Positions 9,886 to 17,214 of a stretch of 64,000 nt of DNA are shown here, piece after piece. Location: NCBI RefSeq assembly GCF_002706745.1, contig NZ_CP017702.1:558001-622000 (forward strand), read 5' to 3'. The DNA comes from Companilactobacillus farciminis KCTC 3681 = DSM 20184 (GTDB lineage Bacteria > Bacillota > Bacilli > Lactobacillales > Lactobacillaceae). Every line of letters starts with the position of its first letter. Position 1 is the first letter of the stretch. Made by a program: the position numbers and the translations under genes. Under the pieces are notes generated by a model. The model did no database searches and was not told where the DNA came from. It saw only the letters and a program-made list of their open reading frames with translations.

Positions 9886-9984
9886 CTATACTATATGAAA
9901 ACAATCACATAATTATATTGCTTTACCTAGTGAAACATTTTACAATTAACATGACAATAAAATAGAAGTGGGATGATTAATGCT

Positions 9985-10593
9985 ATGAATAAATTTATCG
10001 CTATTGTGGGATCAAATTCCCAAAAATCAACCAACCGTGAATTATTGAAGTATATGAAGAGACATTTCAAGGATTTCGCTGAAATTGAATTAGTTGAAAT
10101 CAAGGATTTGCCAATCTTCAAGAAGAGTGCAGACAAGTACGTTCCTCAATTGGCTAAGGATATTGCCAAAAAGATTGAGGACGCTGACGGTGTCATTATT
10201 GCTACTCCTGAATACGATCACTCTGTAACGGCCGTTTTGTCGAGTGCCTTAGCTTGGCTATCATATGGAATCCATCCATTCGTCGACAAACCTGTTATGA
10301 TTACCGGTGCTTCTTATGGATCTCTCGGGTCATCACGTGCCCAAGCTCAATTACGTCAAATCCTCGATTCACCAGAGTTAAAAGCTAGAATTATGCCTAG
10401 TTCAGAATTTCTTTTGGCACATTCATTGCAAGCCTTTGATGATAATGGTGACTTAAAGGATAAAGATGTTGTTAAAGAATTAGACGGTCTTTTCCAAGAC
10501 TTTCTTCAATTCGTTAATATTTCTAAACAATTGAATAATGCTAAAGACGTTACAAAACAAAAGGCTGCCGCATTTTCATGGGACAAAGACTAG
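9985..10593 (+). CDS. NADPH-dependent FMN reductase (flavodoxin-like fold)
   Basis: A 202 aa NADPH-dependent FMN reductase family protein. It has the N-terminal phosphate-binding turn [32 protein letters not shown], and [20 protein letters not shown]. It likely passes NAD(P)H electrons to flavin or to a partner flavoprotein. The ATG at 9985 (MNKFIA) gives the family's usual start; another ATG 12 bases upstream abuts the GTGGG ribosome site. It is about half identical by eye to the N-terminal domain of the next gene, so the pair arose by duplication. It lies in the apbE operon, 10 bases before that gene. Confidence 0.85.
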
Positions 10594-10603
10594 GAGGGGT
10601 AAT

Positions 10604-11869
10604 ATGAAATTAGTAGGAATTGCAGGATCAATCGCTGATCAATCATATAATCGTACATTATTAAACTTTATCGCCAAACATTTTACAGGACTAATCGACG
10701 TCGATGTCTTGGATATCAATGAAGTACCAATGTTCAACCAAGATGACGACCAAACAAATAGCCCGGTTATTCAAAATCTTTGTAAGAAAATCACAGCCGC
10801 TGATGGTGTTATTATTGCTACTCCAGAACACAATCACACTGTTCCTGTAGCCTTGAAGAACGTTATCGAATGGCTATCTTATGAAGTACATCCTTTCGAC
10901 GGCAAACCTGTTATGATCGTCGGAGCTTCATATCATACTCAAGGGTCATCACGTGCCCAACTACATTTGAGACAAATTCTTGAAGCACCCGGTGTTAATG
11001 CGGTTGTCTTGCCTGGTAATGAATTCTTATTAGGCGACGTTAAGACAGCTTTTGACGAAAATGGTGACTTGAAGGACCAAAGAACAGTTGATTTCTTACA
11101 AACTACTTTGCAAAACTTTATCAAATTTGCCAAAGTTATCAACTTGATTAGTCAATCAAACGGCTATCAAGATGAAGACCTTTCCGCTAAGAAGGGAACT
11201 GACACAACTATTCAAGGTATCGACATGAACGATGACGACTGGTTGGACAAAGCTGCTAAGAAAGTTAACGCCGTTGAAGGTGGCACTTACGTCAAATTGG
11301 ACAGTGGCCTGTTGACAGTTGATCAATTGAACTACTTCCTAAAGACTATGCCTGTTGAATTGACTTACGTTGATGAAAATAATCAATTTATCTACTACAA
11401 CAAAGTTGGCGAAGCAAAGGATATGTTAGCTAAACGTGTTCCTGCTCAAGTTGGGGATGCTTTAGATAAAGTTCACCCTAATATCGAACGTGTTATGAAG
11501 CATGTTAAACAAGTTATCTATGACTTGAGAAGTGGCAAGACAGATTTGGTTTCTATGCCAGTACCTGGTGGAGACAAAGATCATCACGTAATGCACTATT
11601 ACAAAGCAATGCATGATGAAAACGACAACTGCAAAGGTGTTAACGAATGGGCCGTTGATCTCAAACCAATCGTTGACCAATACTTGCAACAGACTGGTCA
11701 AAAATTAGTTCCGGATCCAGATGCCAAAATGGACGCTACATCCGGTGCTTCTAAAGCTGAAAGTGAACCAGCAGTTGATGCAAACTCTGGAGCTTCAGAA
11801 TCAGTTGATGAACCTGCTGTCAAACCAGAAGTAAAAGTAGATGCCACATCTAGTGCTTCTAAAAATTAA
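10604..11869 (+). CDS. FMN reductase-PAS-like fusion with repeated flavinylation-like tail motifs
   Basis: A 421 aa protein with three parts. Residues 1-190 form an NADPH-dependent FMN reductase domain ([34 protein letters not shown]). Residues about 210-365 form a PAS-like domain ([19 protein letters not shown], then [15 protein letters not shown]), as in DUF438-type sensors. The ~52 residue tail is low-complexity, rich in Pro/Glu/Ala, and carries [16 protein letters not shown] and VDATSSAS about 15-20 residues apart. These resemble the D-x-x-S/T-G-A-S/T acceptor motif of ApbE, encoded two genes upstream. I infer a cytosolic electron-transfer protein carrying one or more covalent FMNs on a flexible arm. 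The start has an AGGAGGGG site. Confidence 0.8.
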
Positions 11870-11891
11870 GTATTGAATGATGTTAATAAAT

Positions 11892-11935
11892 ATCCCGTTA
11901 GAATGTAATTTGCTTACAATCTAACGGGATTTTTG
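11892..11935 (+). terminator. Terminator of the apbE-FMN reductase operon
   Basis: ATCCCGTTAGA pairs with TCTAACGGGAT and is followed by TTTTTG. Confidence 0.88.
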
Positions 11936-12062
11936 TATTGGTGCGTGAAATTATCATTAAAAATATGTTTAACCATATATGACTAATACGTTTGTCTTCG
12001 TAATGTTTAAACAAAATCTAATGGAATAAATTGATGATTATCGTTCGAATAAAAAAAACGCA

Positions 12063-12372
12063 AAAAAAACAGCTCGTCTTGGGGGGACGGGCTTGTCTTT
12101 TTCTGCATTACCAGTAGTGTCAGGGACAAAGCTATGAATGCTTGTGAGGGTTTCATATTTGTCAAATAGAGAGGGATTTGTAATTAATTAATGAAAGCAT
12201 TCAAAGTAAATTATTGTAATGGGAAACGCATTTGAGGGGGAGGATAAGTTGATTGAGGGGGGCAACTTATCCTGAATGCGAGTGAGTTTTTATGGCTACG
12301 ATATGAGGATGTATCGCAACCTTCTTTGGTTAAAAAAGAAGAATTGCATTTCATATCTTTGCCCCTTTCACA
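12063..12372 (-). ncRNA. Candidate structured sRNA 1 (C-rich loops), tandem copy
   Basis: An inferred minus-strand RNA of about 310 nt. An extended -10 (TGCTATATT, 12379-12387) is preceded by TGTTTAAACA. The 3' end is a hairpin (AGCCCGTC with GACGAGCT, loop CCCCCC) followed by a U-run. Internal hairpins are GGTTGCGAT/ATCGTAGCC with loop ACATCCTC, and a 10 bp stem GGATAAGTTG/CAACTTATCC at 12242-12272 with loop CCCCCCTCAAT. An unpaired TCCCCCTCAA follows. Most of it recurs in the next copy. A 65-codon frame overlaps it but is not conserved in that copy. C-rich loops suggest pairing with Shine-Dalgarno sequences (inference). Confidence 0.7.
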
Positions 12373-12378
12373 GTTAAT

Positions 12379-12387
12379 AATATAGCA
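12379..12387 (-). promoter_or_regulatory. Extended -10 promoter of sRNA 1
   Basis: TGCTATATT on the minus strand, with the palindrome TGTTTAAACA just upstream. The same arrangement precedes sRNA 2. No good -35 is seen, as expected for a TGn-type promoter. Confidence 0.5.
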
Positions 12388-12572
12388 TATATGTTTAAAC
12401 AGATACATTCACTTTTAGAAAAAATAATTTTTTGATTTTGAATAAATAAATATGTAAATATCGTGTTATTATATTTAACTCATTGTAAATTTTTTCACGA
12501 TGTATAGACCATTTTTTTGATATAATGAATTACCCATAAAAATGCTTGTATGATCTATTAAGAAAAAAAGAG

Positions 12573-12912
12573 CAAAAAAAAACAGCTCATCTGGGGGGAC
12601 GGGCTTGTTTTTTTGTTACACCTAATGTGTAACGGCATTACCAGTAGTGTCAGAGACAAAGGTATGAATGCTTATGAGGTTTCCATATTTGTCAAATAGA
12701 GAGGGATTTGTAATTAATTAATTAATGAAAGCATTCAAAGTAAATTATTGTAATGGGATAACGCATTTGAGGGGGGAGGATAAAGTTGATTGAGGGGGGC
12801 AACTTTATCCTGAATGCGAGTAAGCTATTCGGTTACGATATGAGGATGTGTATCGCAACCTTTCGAGTTAAAAAAGGAAGGAATTGCATTGACCATATCT
12901 CTATCTCTTTCA
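12573..12912 (-). ncRNA. Candidate structured sRNA 2 (C-rich loops), tandem copy
   Basis: The second copy, about 340 nt, with the same order of elements. The central stem is one pair longer (GGATAAAGTTG/CAACTTTATCC, 12778-12810) because an A and a complementary T were both gained, while the loop CCCCCCTCAAT is unchanged. An unpaired TCCCCCCTCA lies on its 3' side, and CGCATT/AATGCG closes the domain. The terminator stem (AGCCCGTC with GATGAGCT) shows a G-C to G-U change relative to copy 1. A 19 nt extra hairpin (GTTACAC ... GTGTAAC, 12615-12633) is specific to this copy. Compensatory change favours a functional RNA over a protein. Confidence 0.72.
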
Positions 12913-12919
12913 CACATAT

Positions 12920-12928
12920 AATATAGCA
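12920..12928 (-). promoter_or_regulatory. Extended -10 promoter of sRNA 2
   Basis: TGCTATATT on the minus strand with TGTTTAAACA directly upstream, as for sRNA 1. Confidence 0.5.
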
Positions 12929-13141
12929 CATGTGTTTAAACAATTAAATTCATTTTAGGAAAAAATAATTATTTGTTTTTAGTTTCACAAATACTTTAAT
13001 TTATGTGACTATAATGGTAAGTTTATTTTTTCGTTTTGTGAGGATTTAAACGACACTTTAGCAATTTATGGGGCGTAAGTGAGGTGATTTATACTTTTAA
13101 TTAGGTTTCTTTATAATTTATATATATTTTTTAATATAGTA

Positions 13142-13179
13142 TGTAAACGCTTTAATTATGTTAAAATATTAACTATAAT
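13142..13179 (+). promoter_or_regulatory. cre-like site and -10 of the NADH oxidase gene
   Basis: TGTAAACGCTTTAA (13142-13155) matches the CcpA operator consensus TGWNANCGNTNWCA except one base. It overlaps the -35 region of a TATAAT box at 13174-13179, so catabolite control is likely. Confidence 0.55.
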
Positions 13180-13209
13180 GATATTAAATCATAAAAGGTG
13201 GTAGTTATT

Positions 13210-14550
13210 ATGAAGGTAAGTATCGTAGGATGCACACATGCGGGAACTTTTTCAGCAATGAATATTTTGAAGGAACATCCAGATTGGGAAGTTTCTGTTT
13301 TTGAAAGAAATGATAACCTTTCTTTCCTATCATGTGGGATCGCACTTTGGGTAAGTGATCGTGTTTCAGACCCTAACAAAATGTTTTACGCTAGTCCAGA
13401 AGCTTTGACAGAACTAGGCGCACATATGCACATGCAACATGATGTTACAAATATTGACTTTGATAATAAGAAATTAGCCGTTAAAAACCTAGTTAGTGGG
13501 GAAACTTTTGAACAAGATTATGACAAGCTAGTCATTACTACTGGTTCAGCTCCAGTTATCCCTCCAATTCCAGGCATTGACTCAAGTCGTGTAATGCTTT
13601 GCAAGAATTGGACTAACGCCAATGAATTGAAAGAAAATGCTAAAGATATCAAGAGTGCCATCGTTATTGGTGCCGGCTACATCGGTGCTGAACTAGCTGA
13701 AGGTTACGCTACTCTTGGTAAAGAAACTACTTTGATTGATGCTTTGCCACACGTTTTAGGTAAGAACCTCGATCCTAACATGTCAGCTGTTGCCGAAAAA
13801 GATTACATTGATAACGGTGTAAAACTCGGTATGGGTGAAAAAGTTCAATCATTTGAAGAAACAGATCATAGTGTAATTGTAAAAACTGATAAAAATACTT
13901 ATGAAGCTGATATCGCTGTTATGTGTGTCGGTTTCCGTCCTAATACAAAGATGTTCGCTGACGAATTCGAAACTTTGCCAAACGGTGCCTTGATTGTGGA
14001 TAAATACATGCACACAAGTAAAGAAGACGTCTTCTCAGCCGGTGATGCCGCATCCGTTCACTACAATCCAACTGGAGACAACCAATACATTCCTTTGGCA
14101 ACTAACTCAGTTCGTCAAGGTATCTTGGTTGGTAAGAATATCGAAAAAGATACAGCCCCTTACATGGGAACACAAGCTAGTTCAGCGGTTGAATTATTTG
14201 GCAGAACTTATGCTGCTAGTGGTTTGACTAAAGAACACGCTGAAGTCCTAGGTAAGAAGGTTGACAGCGTATCTCTAGAAGACAATTATCGTCCAGAGTT
14301 CATGTTGACAACTACTCCTGTTTTGATGAACCTCGTATGGGACCCAGAAACAAGAGAAATCCTCGGTGGAGCTTTGACAAGTATGTATGATGTATCACAA
14401 TCAGCTAACCTCTTGTCATTAGCTATTCAAAAGAAAGTTACGATTGATGAATTGTCCATGGTCGACTTCTTGTTCCAACCTAACTTTGACAAACCAGTTA
14501 ACTACGTCAGTGCCTTAGCCGGAGCTGCTGTGGAAAAAGCTGATAAATAA
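13210..14550 (+). CDS. nox: NADH oxidase, water-forming
   Basis: A 446 aa FAD enzyme of the NADH oxidase/peroxidase/CoA-disulfide reductase family. It has an N-terminal FAD-binding turn (VGCTHAGTFSA), the redox cysteine at residue 42 in SFLSCGIALW, an NADH-binding motif GAGYIGAELAEGYATLG, and a C-terminal dimerisation domain. It reduces O2 to water with NADH and regenerates NAD+ under air. The ATG at 13210 is chosen because AAAGGTGG lies 8 nt upstream; an in-frame GTG 12 bases earlier falls inside that ribosome site. It stands alone with its own terminator. Discrimination from NADH peroxidase or CoADR rests on overall likeness to lactic-acid-bacterial Nox. Confidence 0.88.
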   Translation: MKVSIVGCTHAGTFSAMNILKEHPDWEVSVFERNDNLSFLSCGIALWVSDRVSDPNKMFYASPEALTELGAHMHMQHDVTNIDFDNKKLAVKNLVSGETFEQDYDKLVITTGSAPVIPPIPGIDSSRVMLCKNWTNANELKENAKDIKSAIVIGAGYIGAELAEGYATLGKETTLIDALPHVLGKNLDPNMSAVAEKDYIDNGVKLGMGEKVQSFEETDHSVIVKTDKNTYEADIAVMCVGFRPNTKMFADEFETLPNGALIVDKYMHTSKEDVFSAGDAASVHYNPTGDNQYIPLATNSVRQGILVGKNIEKDTAPYMGTQASSAVELFGRTYAASGLTKEHAEVLGKKVDSVSLEDNYRPEFMLTTTPVLMNLVWDPETREILGGALTSMYDVSQSANLLSLAIQKKVTIDELSMVDFLFQPNFDKPVNYVSALAGAAVEKADK

Positions 14551-15452: not shown

Positions 15453-16679
15453 ATGGAAAACGAATTACGCTTTTTGTCATTAGATATCGAAGGATATCCT
15501 TTATTTGAAAATAATTTGCATTTTTCTTTATTGACTGATAGCAGAGTTTCGCAAGATTATGCGGATTCTCTTATGCATTTATTTGGTTCTAATTACACTA
15601 ACAATATAACAACAATTGTAGGTAAAAATGCTACAGGGAAAACCATGATAATGAAAATTACTATGGGAATTCTGTCGTTATTGTTCAACGGTAAGTCTGT
15701 AAAAGAAACTAGACTAAAAGAAGTGTTGTTTGATGATTCTGATGTAAAATTTACAGTGTACCTGTATGGGAACGATAAATATCTATATCAAGATCAAATT
15801 ATTATTGGAAGTAAATTTGATGGTTTAGAGTCCAATTTTGAAGTTAAGTCTGAAAAGATTTTTAAAAAGAAAGCTAAAGTTAGTGAACCTAAAAGAGATT
15901 TATTAACATTCTCGAAAAGGAATTTAATTTTAGATAGAAATAATTTGAAAAGTGATGTTGCTGCCGCTTTGGCATCAGATGATTCAATGTTTAGAATGAT
16001 TGTTAGAGCTGGCAATTATCGTATTCCAATGATTACCGATAATACAATTTTTACAAATACTAATTTCTTTATTCCTAACCTTGGCGATGTTCCTAGTGAA
16101 ATACTTGAGTATTTGGATCCAAGTATTGAATATTTAAAAATTGAGAAGGCTGATAATAATAAAGTTTTTTATCGATTAAAATTTAAAGATAGGGAAGAAG
16201 AATTAACTGATCAAAATTTTGCTACCATTGAATATTATTTATCTTCAGGTACAGCGAAAGGAATTTCTTTATATACTCAAATTTTACGTACTTTAAAGAG
16301 TGGTGGGATTATTTTCGTTGACGAAATTGAAAATCATTTTAATCATGCAATAGCTCGAAGTTTTATTAATTATTTTAAAGATTCTGCGATTAATATAAAT
16401 AACGCCAAATTAGTATTTACCACCCATTATTCGGAGTTTTTAGATGATATGGATAGAAATGATCAAATATTTATAGCTAGAAGATTATCCAAAATATCAT
16501 TGACTAGATATTCAAGTACGAAAATAAGGAGTGATATTTTGAGATCTGACGTCTTCATGTCGAATAGTATTGATGGTACAGCACCAGAGTATAGTGCATA
16601 TATTGCGTTGAAAAAAGCAACGATTAATAGTATCAAAAATTACGGACATCGACGTGAGGTATGTAAAGATGAGCAATAA
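15453..16679 (+). CDS. AAA/ABC-type ATPase of a putative two-gene defence module
   Basis: A 408 aa ATPase of the overcoming-lysogenization/RloA/AbiLi-like group. It has Walker A GKNATGKT at residues 57-64, an ABC signature-like LSSGTAKG at 263-270, Walker B IIFVDEIE at 285-292, and a switch His in FTTHYSEFL at about 325. The insert between Walker A and the signature is typical of this ATPase class. The end overlaps the start of the next gene by 11 bases, so the two are translationally coupled. In this class (Septu, Gabija-like, PARIS, RloAB, AbiL) the ATPase senses infection and a small partner is the effector. The gene is more AT-rich than its neighbours, which suggests transfer. Function is inferred. 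Confidence 0.75.
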   Translation: MENELRFLSLDIEGYPLFENNLHFSLLTDSRVSQDYADSLMHLFGSNYTNNITTIVGKNATGKTMIMKITMGILSLLFNGKSVKETRLKEVLFDDSDVKFTVYLYGNDKYLYQDQIIIGSKFDGLESNFEVKSEKIFKKKAKVSEPKRDLLTFSKRNLILDRNNLKSDVAAALASDDSMFRMIVRAGNYRIPMITDNTIFTNTNFFIPNLGDVPSEILEYLDPSIEYLKIEKADNNKVFYRLKFKDREEELTDQNFATIEYYLSSGTAKGISLYTQILRTLKSGGIIFVDEIENHFNHAIARSFINYFKDSAININNAKLVFTTHYSEFLDDMDRNDQIFIARRLSKISLTRYSSTKIRSDILRSDVFMSNSIDGTAPEYSAYIALKKATINSIKNYGHRREVCKDEQ

Positions 16680-17214
16680 TTACATTGCTGTGATAGTCGA
16701 AGGTGGAGCTGAAAAAGCTATTATTAATGTTCTATTAGATCATGACCTCTTAAAATTTAATAGAAGTGATATGTTAGAAGAAGATGTTATAAGAGATAGA
16801 AATGCCAAAACATTTGCTAGAGAGCATTTGAGTTATGGATTTGCAAAAAATCAGATATCAATTTTTCGTATTTTAGATTCTCGTAAAGAAGAATTTTCAC
16901 TTCCTAAGCCATATACTCGATTGGTATCTTCAAGAATTGATATCCTTACAACTCCTGAAATTGAAATTCTTTTTATTGTATACAAAGGGGACTTTGACAA
17001 GTTTAAAAATCAAAAGCCGAATAAAAGTGGTAAAAAATTACCGGCTCATGAATGGTGTAAGAAATTCTATAATATGAAAGATGTAAAGTCACCAGAATTT
17101 GTTTACGATTACTGGAATTATCAACCAGATAAATTGGTTGAGACGATTCGACTGTATTCTCAGAAATGTGATTATCCGTTTGAAAATACTTTAGCTAGTA
17201 TTTTGAAAAAATAA
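16669..17214 (+). CDS. Partner protein of the ATPase, RloB/AbiLii-like
   Basis: A 181 aa soluble protein. The N-terminus YIAVIVEGGAEKAIINVLL resembles the first acidic motif of TOPRIM/RloB-type nucleases (VEG-x-x-E). A middle motif TPEIEILFIVYKGDFDKF is followed by a basic KPNKSGKK stretch and a conserved-looking HEWCKKFY; uncharacterised proteins with this pattern occur beside AAA ATPases. I place the start at ATG 16669, served by GAGGT at 16656, rather than at the GTG 15 bases upstream. Size (~180-210 aa) and gene order match RloAB/AbiL-like pairs. The nuclease role is inference; a second acidic DxD motif is not clear. Confidence 0.6.
   Translation: MSNNYIAVIVEGGAEKAIINVLLDHDLLKFNRSDMLEEDVIRDRNAKTFAREHLSYGFAKNQISIFRILDSRKEEFSLPKPYTRLVSSRIDILTTPEIEILFIVYKGDFDKFKNQKPNKSGKKLPAHEWCKKFYNMKDVKSPEFVYDYWNYQPDKLVETIRLYSQKCDYPFENTLASILKK

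Follow-up and report, generated by a model that had tools for sequence, protein, structure and literature searches.

Two tandem copies of a structured RNA in the window (the whole 64,000-nt stretch of DNA analysed here) were found to belong to a real, genus-wide and covarying RNA family that has no curated match in Rfam. The array is constantly paired head to head with nox, and this pairing is the strongest clue obtained, one that an earlier reading made from the letters alone (the sequence-only reading) had missed. The family is probably undescribed so far and probably has a regulatory role. On balance, we favour the view that its members are trans-acting small RNAs (sRNAs) specific to the genus, with multiple anti-Shine-Dalgarno sites and linked by position to oxygen/NADH metabolism.

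The RNA genes are found on the minus strand, within a 1.35 kb gap that separates an FMN-reductase/PAS gene (end at 11869) from nox (start at 13216). As had been proposed from the letters, this gap without genes holds two blocks of ~310–340 nt: copy 1, distal to nox and about 315 nt long (12062–12379, minus strand), and the nox-proximal copy 2 of about 340 nt (12575–12920, minus strand; 346 nt in alignment A1, below), which are 83% identical. The start of copy 2 was inferred from its -10 element and its end was placed at the T run of the terminator. Each copy has a predicted promoter with the extended -10 TGCTATATT and the palindrome TGTTTAAACA just upstream of it. In copy 2 (12920–12942) the -10, TATATT, lies at 12920–12925 and the palindrome at 12933–12942, and in copy 1 (12379–12401) these occur at 12379–12384 and 12392–12401. 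Intrinsic terminators with C-rich loops were identified at 12069–12097 (copy 1) and 12581–12609 (copy 2), both corresponding to helix 9 of the covariation analysis. The central hairpin, with the loop CCCCCCUCAAU, spans 12241–12273 in copy 1 (loop at 12252–12262; from sequence and fold) and 12777–12811 in copy 2 (loop at 12789–12799; an inverted repeat, covariation helix 6). The extended -10, the central loop, the C-rich terminator loop, the CAUCCUC hairpin loop and the unpaired C-rich stretch had been pointed out in the sequence-only reading, and all are present, the last as CCCCC(C)UCAAA. Its stem lengths for the central hairpin (10 and 11 bp) were each one short, the stem having 11 bp in copy 1 and one more, 12 bp, in copy 2, and the complementary base it saw gained on both sides in copy 2 is indeed there, as an A-U pair.

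An orphan TGTTTAAACA was also seen at 12004–12013, downstream of copy 1. It matches the RNA promoter palindrome and is possibly the remnant of a lost third copy, some relatives having three. The home genome contains 10 TGTTTAAACA sites compared with 7 for a reversed control, and the idea of a regulon marked by the palindrome was dropped for this reason.

Both copies fold far more stably than shuffled sequences, with -83.6 kcal/mol for copy 1, where 100 shuffles average -50.0 (sd 4.4; z -7.6), and -82.4 kcal/mol for copy 2, where 100 shuffles average -53.0 (sd 4.8; z -6.2); no shuffle was as low in either case. Of the 53 type A copies found, 52 were aligned (alignment A1; one partial copy was left out), and a consensus structure of 50 pairs in nine helices was derived from RNAalifold output and by eye on A1 itself. 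In this structure 90.0% of cells are paired, against 82.6% in shuffled alignments, and none of 500 shuffles was as high. The same is true of the number of pairs changed on both sides (31 of 50 vs. 21.0), the cells changed on both sides (219 vs. 64.0) and the covariation score (0.284 vs. 0.159), while one shuffle in 500 reached the number of further pair types that was observed (80 vs. 72.1). Versions of the structure with slid partners paired at only 33–46%, a comparison in which the structure has the advantage of having been drawn on the same alignment. Given that related sequences can outdo shuffles without any structure, the number of double-change pairs is the safer measure. The weak spots are helix 4, which is 75.6% paired, and single pairs such as 394–413 and 78–101, at which roughly every second copy fails to pair. 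An alternative long-range helix, GAAUGCUU/AAGCAUUC (230–237/314–321), was considered unsupported; it is 90% paired but has zero double-change pairs, and shuffles do about equally well. As the structure covaries over 52 homologous copies it is not a product of chance, and the description of a structured, multi-copy, non-coding RNA is upheld.

The molecule is closed by a 5′/3′ helix in which GUGAAAGGGG..GAUAUGA pairs with UCAUAUC..CCCC..CAC. The 5′ end of the RNA might also be taken for part of a short-protein mRNA, with AAAGGGG before the AUG serving as the ribosome site for a peptide; GAAAGGGG..GAUAUG does resemble a ribosome-binding site and start, and copy 1 holds a 47-codon frame. However, no conserved reading frame was found in the 52 copies, in which the frames from the 5′ AUG range from 1 to 53 codons and have differing endings, and the closing helix, which covaries, uses the G-rich run as one of its arms. 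With its frame length unconserved, the peptide-coding reading was rejected as highly improbable.

Single-stranded C-rich sites are predicted at AUUCCUUCC, the CAUCCUC hairpin loop, the CCCCCCUCAA hairpin loop, AUCCCUCUCUAU, ACCUCAC and the terminator loop, with a second CCCUCAAAUG present in some copies only. That loops stay fixed while stems vary, as first noticed from two copies, was borne out by column identities in A1. These are 0.62 for the arms of the central stem and 0.96 for its loop, 0.78 and 0.94 for the stem and loop of the CAUCCUC hairpin, and 0.85 and 0.91 for those of the terminator, compared with a mean of 0.83 over all columns. Values of 0.96 for AUCCCUCUCU, 0.92 for ACCUCA and 0.94 for AUUCCUUCC complete a range of 91–96% for the C-rich loops other than the central one. 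CCUC occurs on average 4.9 times per copy (range 4–7), against 1.46 in dinucleotide shuffles (the top of 100 shuffle means being 1.88), and CCUCA 3.5 times against 0.46. In the predicted folds, 91% of CCUC positions are unpaired, versus 45% of other C/U positions. Strong conservation was also seen for ACACUACUGGUAAUG, with a column identity of 0.98 in A1, and for GACACUACUGGUAAUG (12106–12121 and 12636–12651), which is without a C-rich motif and at 98% ranks with the most highly conserved parts of the type A RNA, leaving a rough trace only in the type B form described below.

Loops so numerous, almost invariant and anti-Shine-Dalgarno-like would also suit a protein- or ribosome-binding RNA without specific mRNA targets, whose C/U-rich loops bind a cold-shock or KH-type protein or mimic the 16S anti-Shine-Dalgarno as a decoy, and it is in keeping with this that a clear genome-wide target signal was not found. 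We consider such a role unlikely; the loop contexts (CAUCCUCAU, CCCCCCUCAAUCAA, AUCCCUCUCU, ACCUCAC) differ and each is kept, as would be expected of a set of separate pairing sites more than of a single motif for a protein. At the sequence level, the RNA has the features of a trans-acting sRNA, namely a predicted promoter and terminator of its own, no conserved open reading frame, and conserved sites that are predicted to be accessible. In the trans-acting mechanism that we propose, the long 5′/3′ helix would close the molecule and hold out several single-stranded C-rich sites, each of which would pair with a G-rich Shine-Dalgarno region of the UGAGG type, and this pairing would block translation or alter mRNA stability.

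The distribution of the RNA was examined using several searches. With BLAST, 29 of the 36 genomes of its own genus (G000–G035) gave substantial matches (E 2e-14 or better), G008 and G017 gave a 22-nt match only and five gave none; there were no matches in 64 genomes outside the genus (100 genomes in all). A sequence profile, R1, run on 397 family genomes from 40 genera produced 22 matches, all within its own genus (1 of 40 genera), under strict filters that missed the type B form in G001, G008 and G030. A DNA pattern scan of a contig collection found 23 contigs, of which 22 are titled Companilactobacillus and one is a MAG titled uncultured Lactobacillus. When a combined model of both forms, R3, was applied to 34 genomes, it matched G001 (type B, and itself in the model) and gave eight marginal partial matches, with E values from 6e-4 to 0.07, that are spread over six other genomes; the best three of these eight loci were inspected and rejected, as they lie inside open coding frames. 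The searches of family genomes thus found no convincing relatives outside Companilactobacillus. No Rfam family matches either RNA at gathering score, in agreement with the earlier view that no known family fits, and lax thresholds over 11860–13200 gave sub-threshold matches only, with nothing credible at the RNAs.

Using nhmmer, 53 copies were found in 30 loci, with nine duplicate loci set aside. The 52 aligned copies are distributed as one copy in 12 loci, two in 14 and three in four, where G006 counts as two one-copy loci on separate contigs. One to three full tandem copies per locus could be expected of a structured element, mobile or repetitive, whose place near nox is accidental. However, both matches at E <0.01 in the home genome (2.55 Mb, single contig) fall in this one locus, the synteny is fixed, and no match to the RNA was found in phage and plasmid collections. 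The mobile-element reading was rejected on this last result and is hardly credible.

The apparent absence of the RNA from six genomes was refuted by the presence there of a diverged form, type B, of 338–357 nt. It is divergent from nox in G001, G008, G017, G030, G032 and G035, all of which lack a substantial BLAST match, and its discovery brings the RNA, as type A or type B, to 35 of the 36 genomes of the genus sample. Type B scored E 1e-8 to 4e-6 with model R2 and E 2e-6 to 1e-4 with R1. It keeps the CAUCCUC hairpin loop on a 6-bp stem of wholly different sequence (GUGGUA/UACCAC or UGCCAC) and it also keeps CCCCUCAA, the flanking stem of which has 4–6 bp in three of the six RNAs and just 3 bp in the other three, making the predicted CCCCUCAA hairpin convincing in just three of six. 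It carries AAAUCCCUCU..UUUGACA, and its closing 5′/3′ helix differs in sequence from that of type A, with a predicted duplex energy of -17 to -25 kcal/mol. TGTTTAAACA is absent from all six type B promoters. The sole exception in the genus is G034, a genome of 1.5 Mb, where R3 matched nothing up to E 0.1, with a marginal R2 match beside nox to the 3′ half of the model (16.7 bits, E 0.026) and R1 values of E 0.7 or worse. The nox gene of G034 (L178, around 1234–2571) has two stops and a frame break, and this concurrence of a missing RNA with a disrupted nox is suggestive, in one genome.

The nox gene (13216–14550, plus strand) is H2O-forming NADH oxidase-like. It matches Pfam Pyr_redox_2, and its best NCBIfam match, NOXase_Strep, scores 423.9 bits, short of the curated cut-off of 600 for this model. 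All 23 named loci, a set selected through the RNA, have the array head to head with nox, and so have six of six type B loci, a set selected through nox. From the start of the RNA model to the start of nox the distance is 274–284 bp in 19 of the 23 named loci and 324–325 bp in the other four. The genes within 9973–14550 of the window are redox genes. On the far side of the array, the FMN reductase genes of the window recur in 11 of the 23 loci, several with ApbE and an FAD/FMN-binding reductase; others (e.g., L081, L085, L091 and L100) have kilobases of flank without any of these three. With the reductase neighbours missing in some loci, nox is the sole constant neighbour. The gene itself was found at E 1e-140 or better in 19 of 25 other genera, and no CCUC-rich stretch was found upstream of it in those 19, where the first 700 bases (or, for one genus, 533) contain at most three CCTC.

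This constant adjacency and narrow spacing in 23 loci, along with the disrupted nox of G034, the sole sampled member without a convincing RNA, might suggest a cis device in which transcription of the array, rather than the RNA, controls the divergent nox promoter. Such a device would have no need for a covarying 320-nt structure or constant loops, nor for two or three copies that each have a promoter and a terminator, and it appears improbable. Returning to a trans-acting RNA, its gene is transcribed, by prediction, away from nox from a shared intergenic region, and for this reason the RNA would most likely act upon a change in oxygen or NADH status. The locus alignment shows, further upstream than the RNA promoter, a box conserved in most loci, TTTGTTTTTAGTTTCACAAA (12972–12991), a TTTGTTTTTAATATCACAAA-like box that we take by eye to resemble a Rex operator. 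It has one full and one partial half-site, agrees with a Rex operator consensus at 12 of 18 positions and is lost in some loci, which makes it a weak candidate for a putative Rex operator. The same alignment shows that a putative, presumably cre-like (CcpA) site, TGTAAACGCTTTAA (13142–13155, plus strand), is kept before nox in the shared intergenic region.

Further along the window, between nox/DUF6483 and yfhO, the region 15453–17214 contains a gene for an AAA ATPase (E 4e-31 with the AbiLi model of PADLOC) that overlaps a gene of 186 aa, itself without a PADLOC or Pfam match and perhaps TOPRIM-like by eye. The two genes are a candidate defence pair, which was not detected in the 13 related loci showing both nox and yfhO.

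Candidate targets were sought among ribosome-binding sites, as the sequence-only reading had suggested. The pattern TTGAGGGG-N(2–12)-ATG has 11 matches in the home genome compared with five for a reversed control. Those ahead of a gene with a Pfam family concern a PTS EIIC, a GAT-type EIIC, lplA, DegV, an MFS and an ABC transporter gene; among the others are two genes without a Pfam family at 1e-10, one match without a gene and one with just a 54-codon stretch. The ribosome-binding site of the PTS EIIC mRNA, complementary to the CCCCUCAA loop, keeps TTGAGGGG (as UUGAGGGG) in 19 of 20 orthologues and TTGAGGGGG in 18, all in type A genomes; the orthologue is missing from type B genomes. Shine-Dalgarno sites are, in any case, conserved. 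For lplA, which 36 genomes possess, the complement varies among species, and TTGAGGGGG is kept only in the four closest of the 30 orthologues seen. A second lipoate ligase gene adjoins lplA in the six type B genomes and in one type A genome, G027. Predicted duplexes for six candidates range from -15.9 to -27.9 kcal/mol, and five of the six exceed the best of 42 ribosome-binding sites of the window (-17.5; mean -10.7, sd 2.8), a comparison that is biased since the candidates were picked by the TTGAGGGG pattern. Over 36 genomes, TTGAGGGG-type sites are about as frequent in type A as in type B genomes, with no trend, so no genome-wide adaptation is visible; G034, the sole RNA-less genome, has one TTGAGGGG-N-ATG, too few to use. 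The search therefore yielded candidate ribosome-binding sites, while the genus-wide TTGAGGGG count adds no independent support, and it is the anatomy of the RNA that suggests pairing with Shine-Dalgarno regions.

The RNA represents a new family for curation. Its covariation is supported by 29 genomes, its partner gene is constant, and the prediction it yields about mechanism is clear. If the proposal is true, RNA-based redox control would be directly testable in a food bacterium, which would also be an independent example of C-rich sRNAs with multiple loops and of why Gram-positive bacteria build them. To our knowledge, and within a narrow search of the literature, the regulatory RNAs of lactobacilli are little described. 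Among the matches listed in open-licence literature on small and structured RNAs of Companilactobacillus and Lactobacillaceae, L. farciminis transcriptomes and NADH oxidase sRNAs, judged by title or abstract start, there was no description of this RNA.

RNAIII of Staphylococcus aureus is a large RNA in which several C-rich loops pair with Shine-Dalgarno regions. Its Rfam covariance model does not match on the window, and the present RNA differs from it in having no conserved peptide frame. A more tentative reading, possible though somewhat doubtful, is that of a genus-wide hub RNA for the oxygen/NADH response in the style of RNAIII, which would have evolved independently in the Lactobacillaceae and would serve redox rather than quorum sensing. 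Here, a comb of 4–7 anti-Shine-Dalgarno sites would be carried on one scaffold, whose gene lies head to head with nox and in many cases has tandem duplicates.

The csRNAs of Streptococcus, which are short and encoded at separate loci, resemble the present RNA as multi-copy sRNAs and carry anti-Shine-Dalgarno motifs. They are under the control of one two-component system, CiaRH (PMC4132741). Inspection by eye of the alignment of the RNA promoters showed no CiaR repeat.

The copies of LhrC are partly tandem and about one third as long as the Companilactobacillus RNA. In Listeria monocytogenes there are five of them (LhrC1–5), each with three redundant CU-rich sites that pair with target mRNAs (PMC4132741). 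The present RNA is like LhrC in its multiple copies with several CU-rich sites each, and unlike it in its length of about 315–345 nt, its 4–7 CCUC, its closing 5′/3′ helix and its position adjoining nox. The Rfam covariance models of the LhrC and RoxS/RsaE families gave no match on the window or on 11860–13200. The analogy with LhrC drawn in the sequence-only reading is good for the proposed mode of action and not for membership, given the different length, the lack of an Rfam match and the other neighbours. RoxS/RsaE of Bacillus and Staphylococcus is a C-rich base-pairing sRNA tied to NAD+/NADH balance, and RoxS is repressed by Rex (PMC5419742). Compared with RoxS, the present RNA is several times longer, and its redox link comes from gene neighbourhood only. 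While a member of neither family, the RNA of Companilactobacillus most likely works in the manner of LhrC or RoxS.
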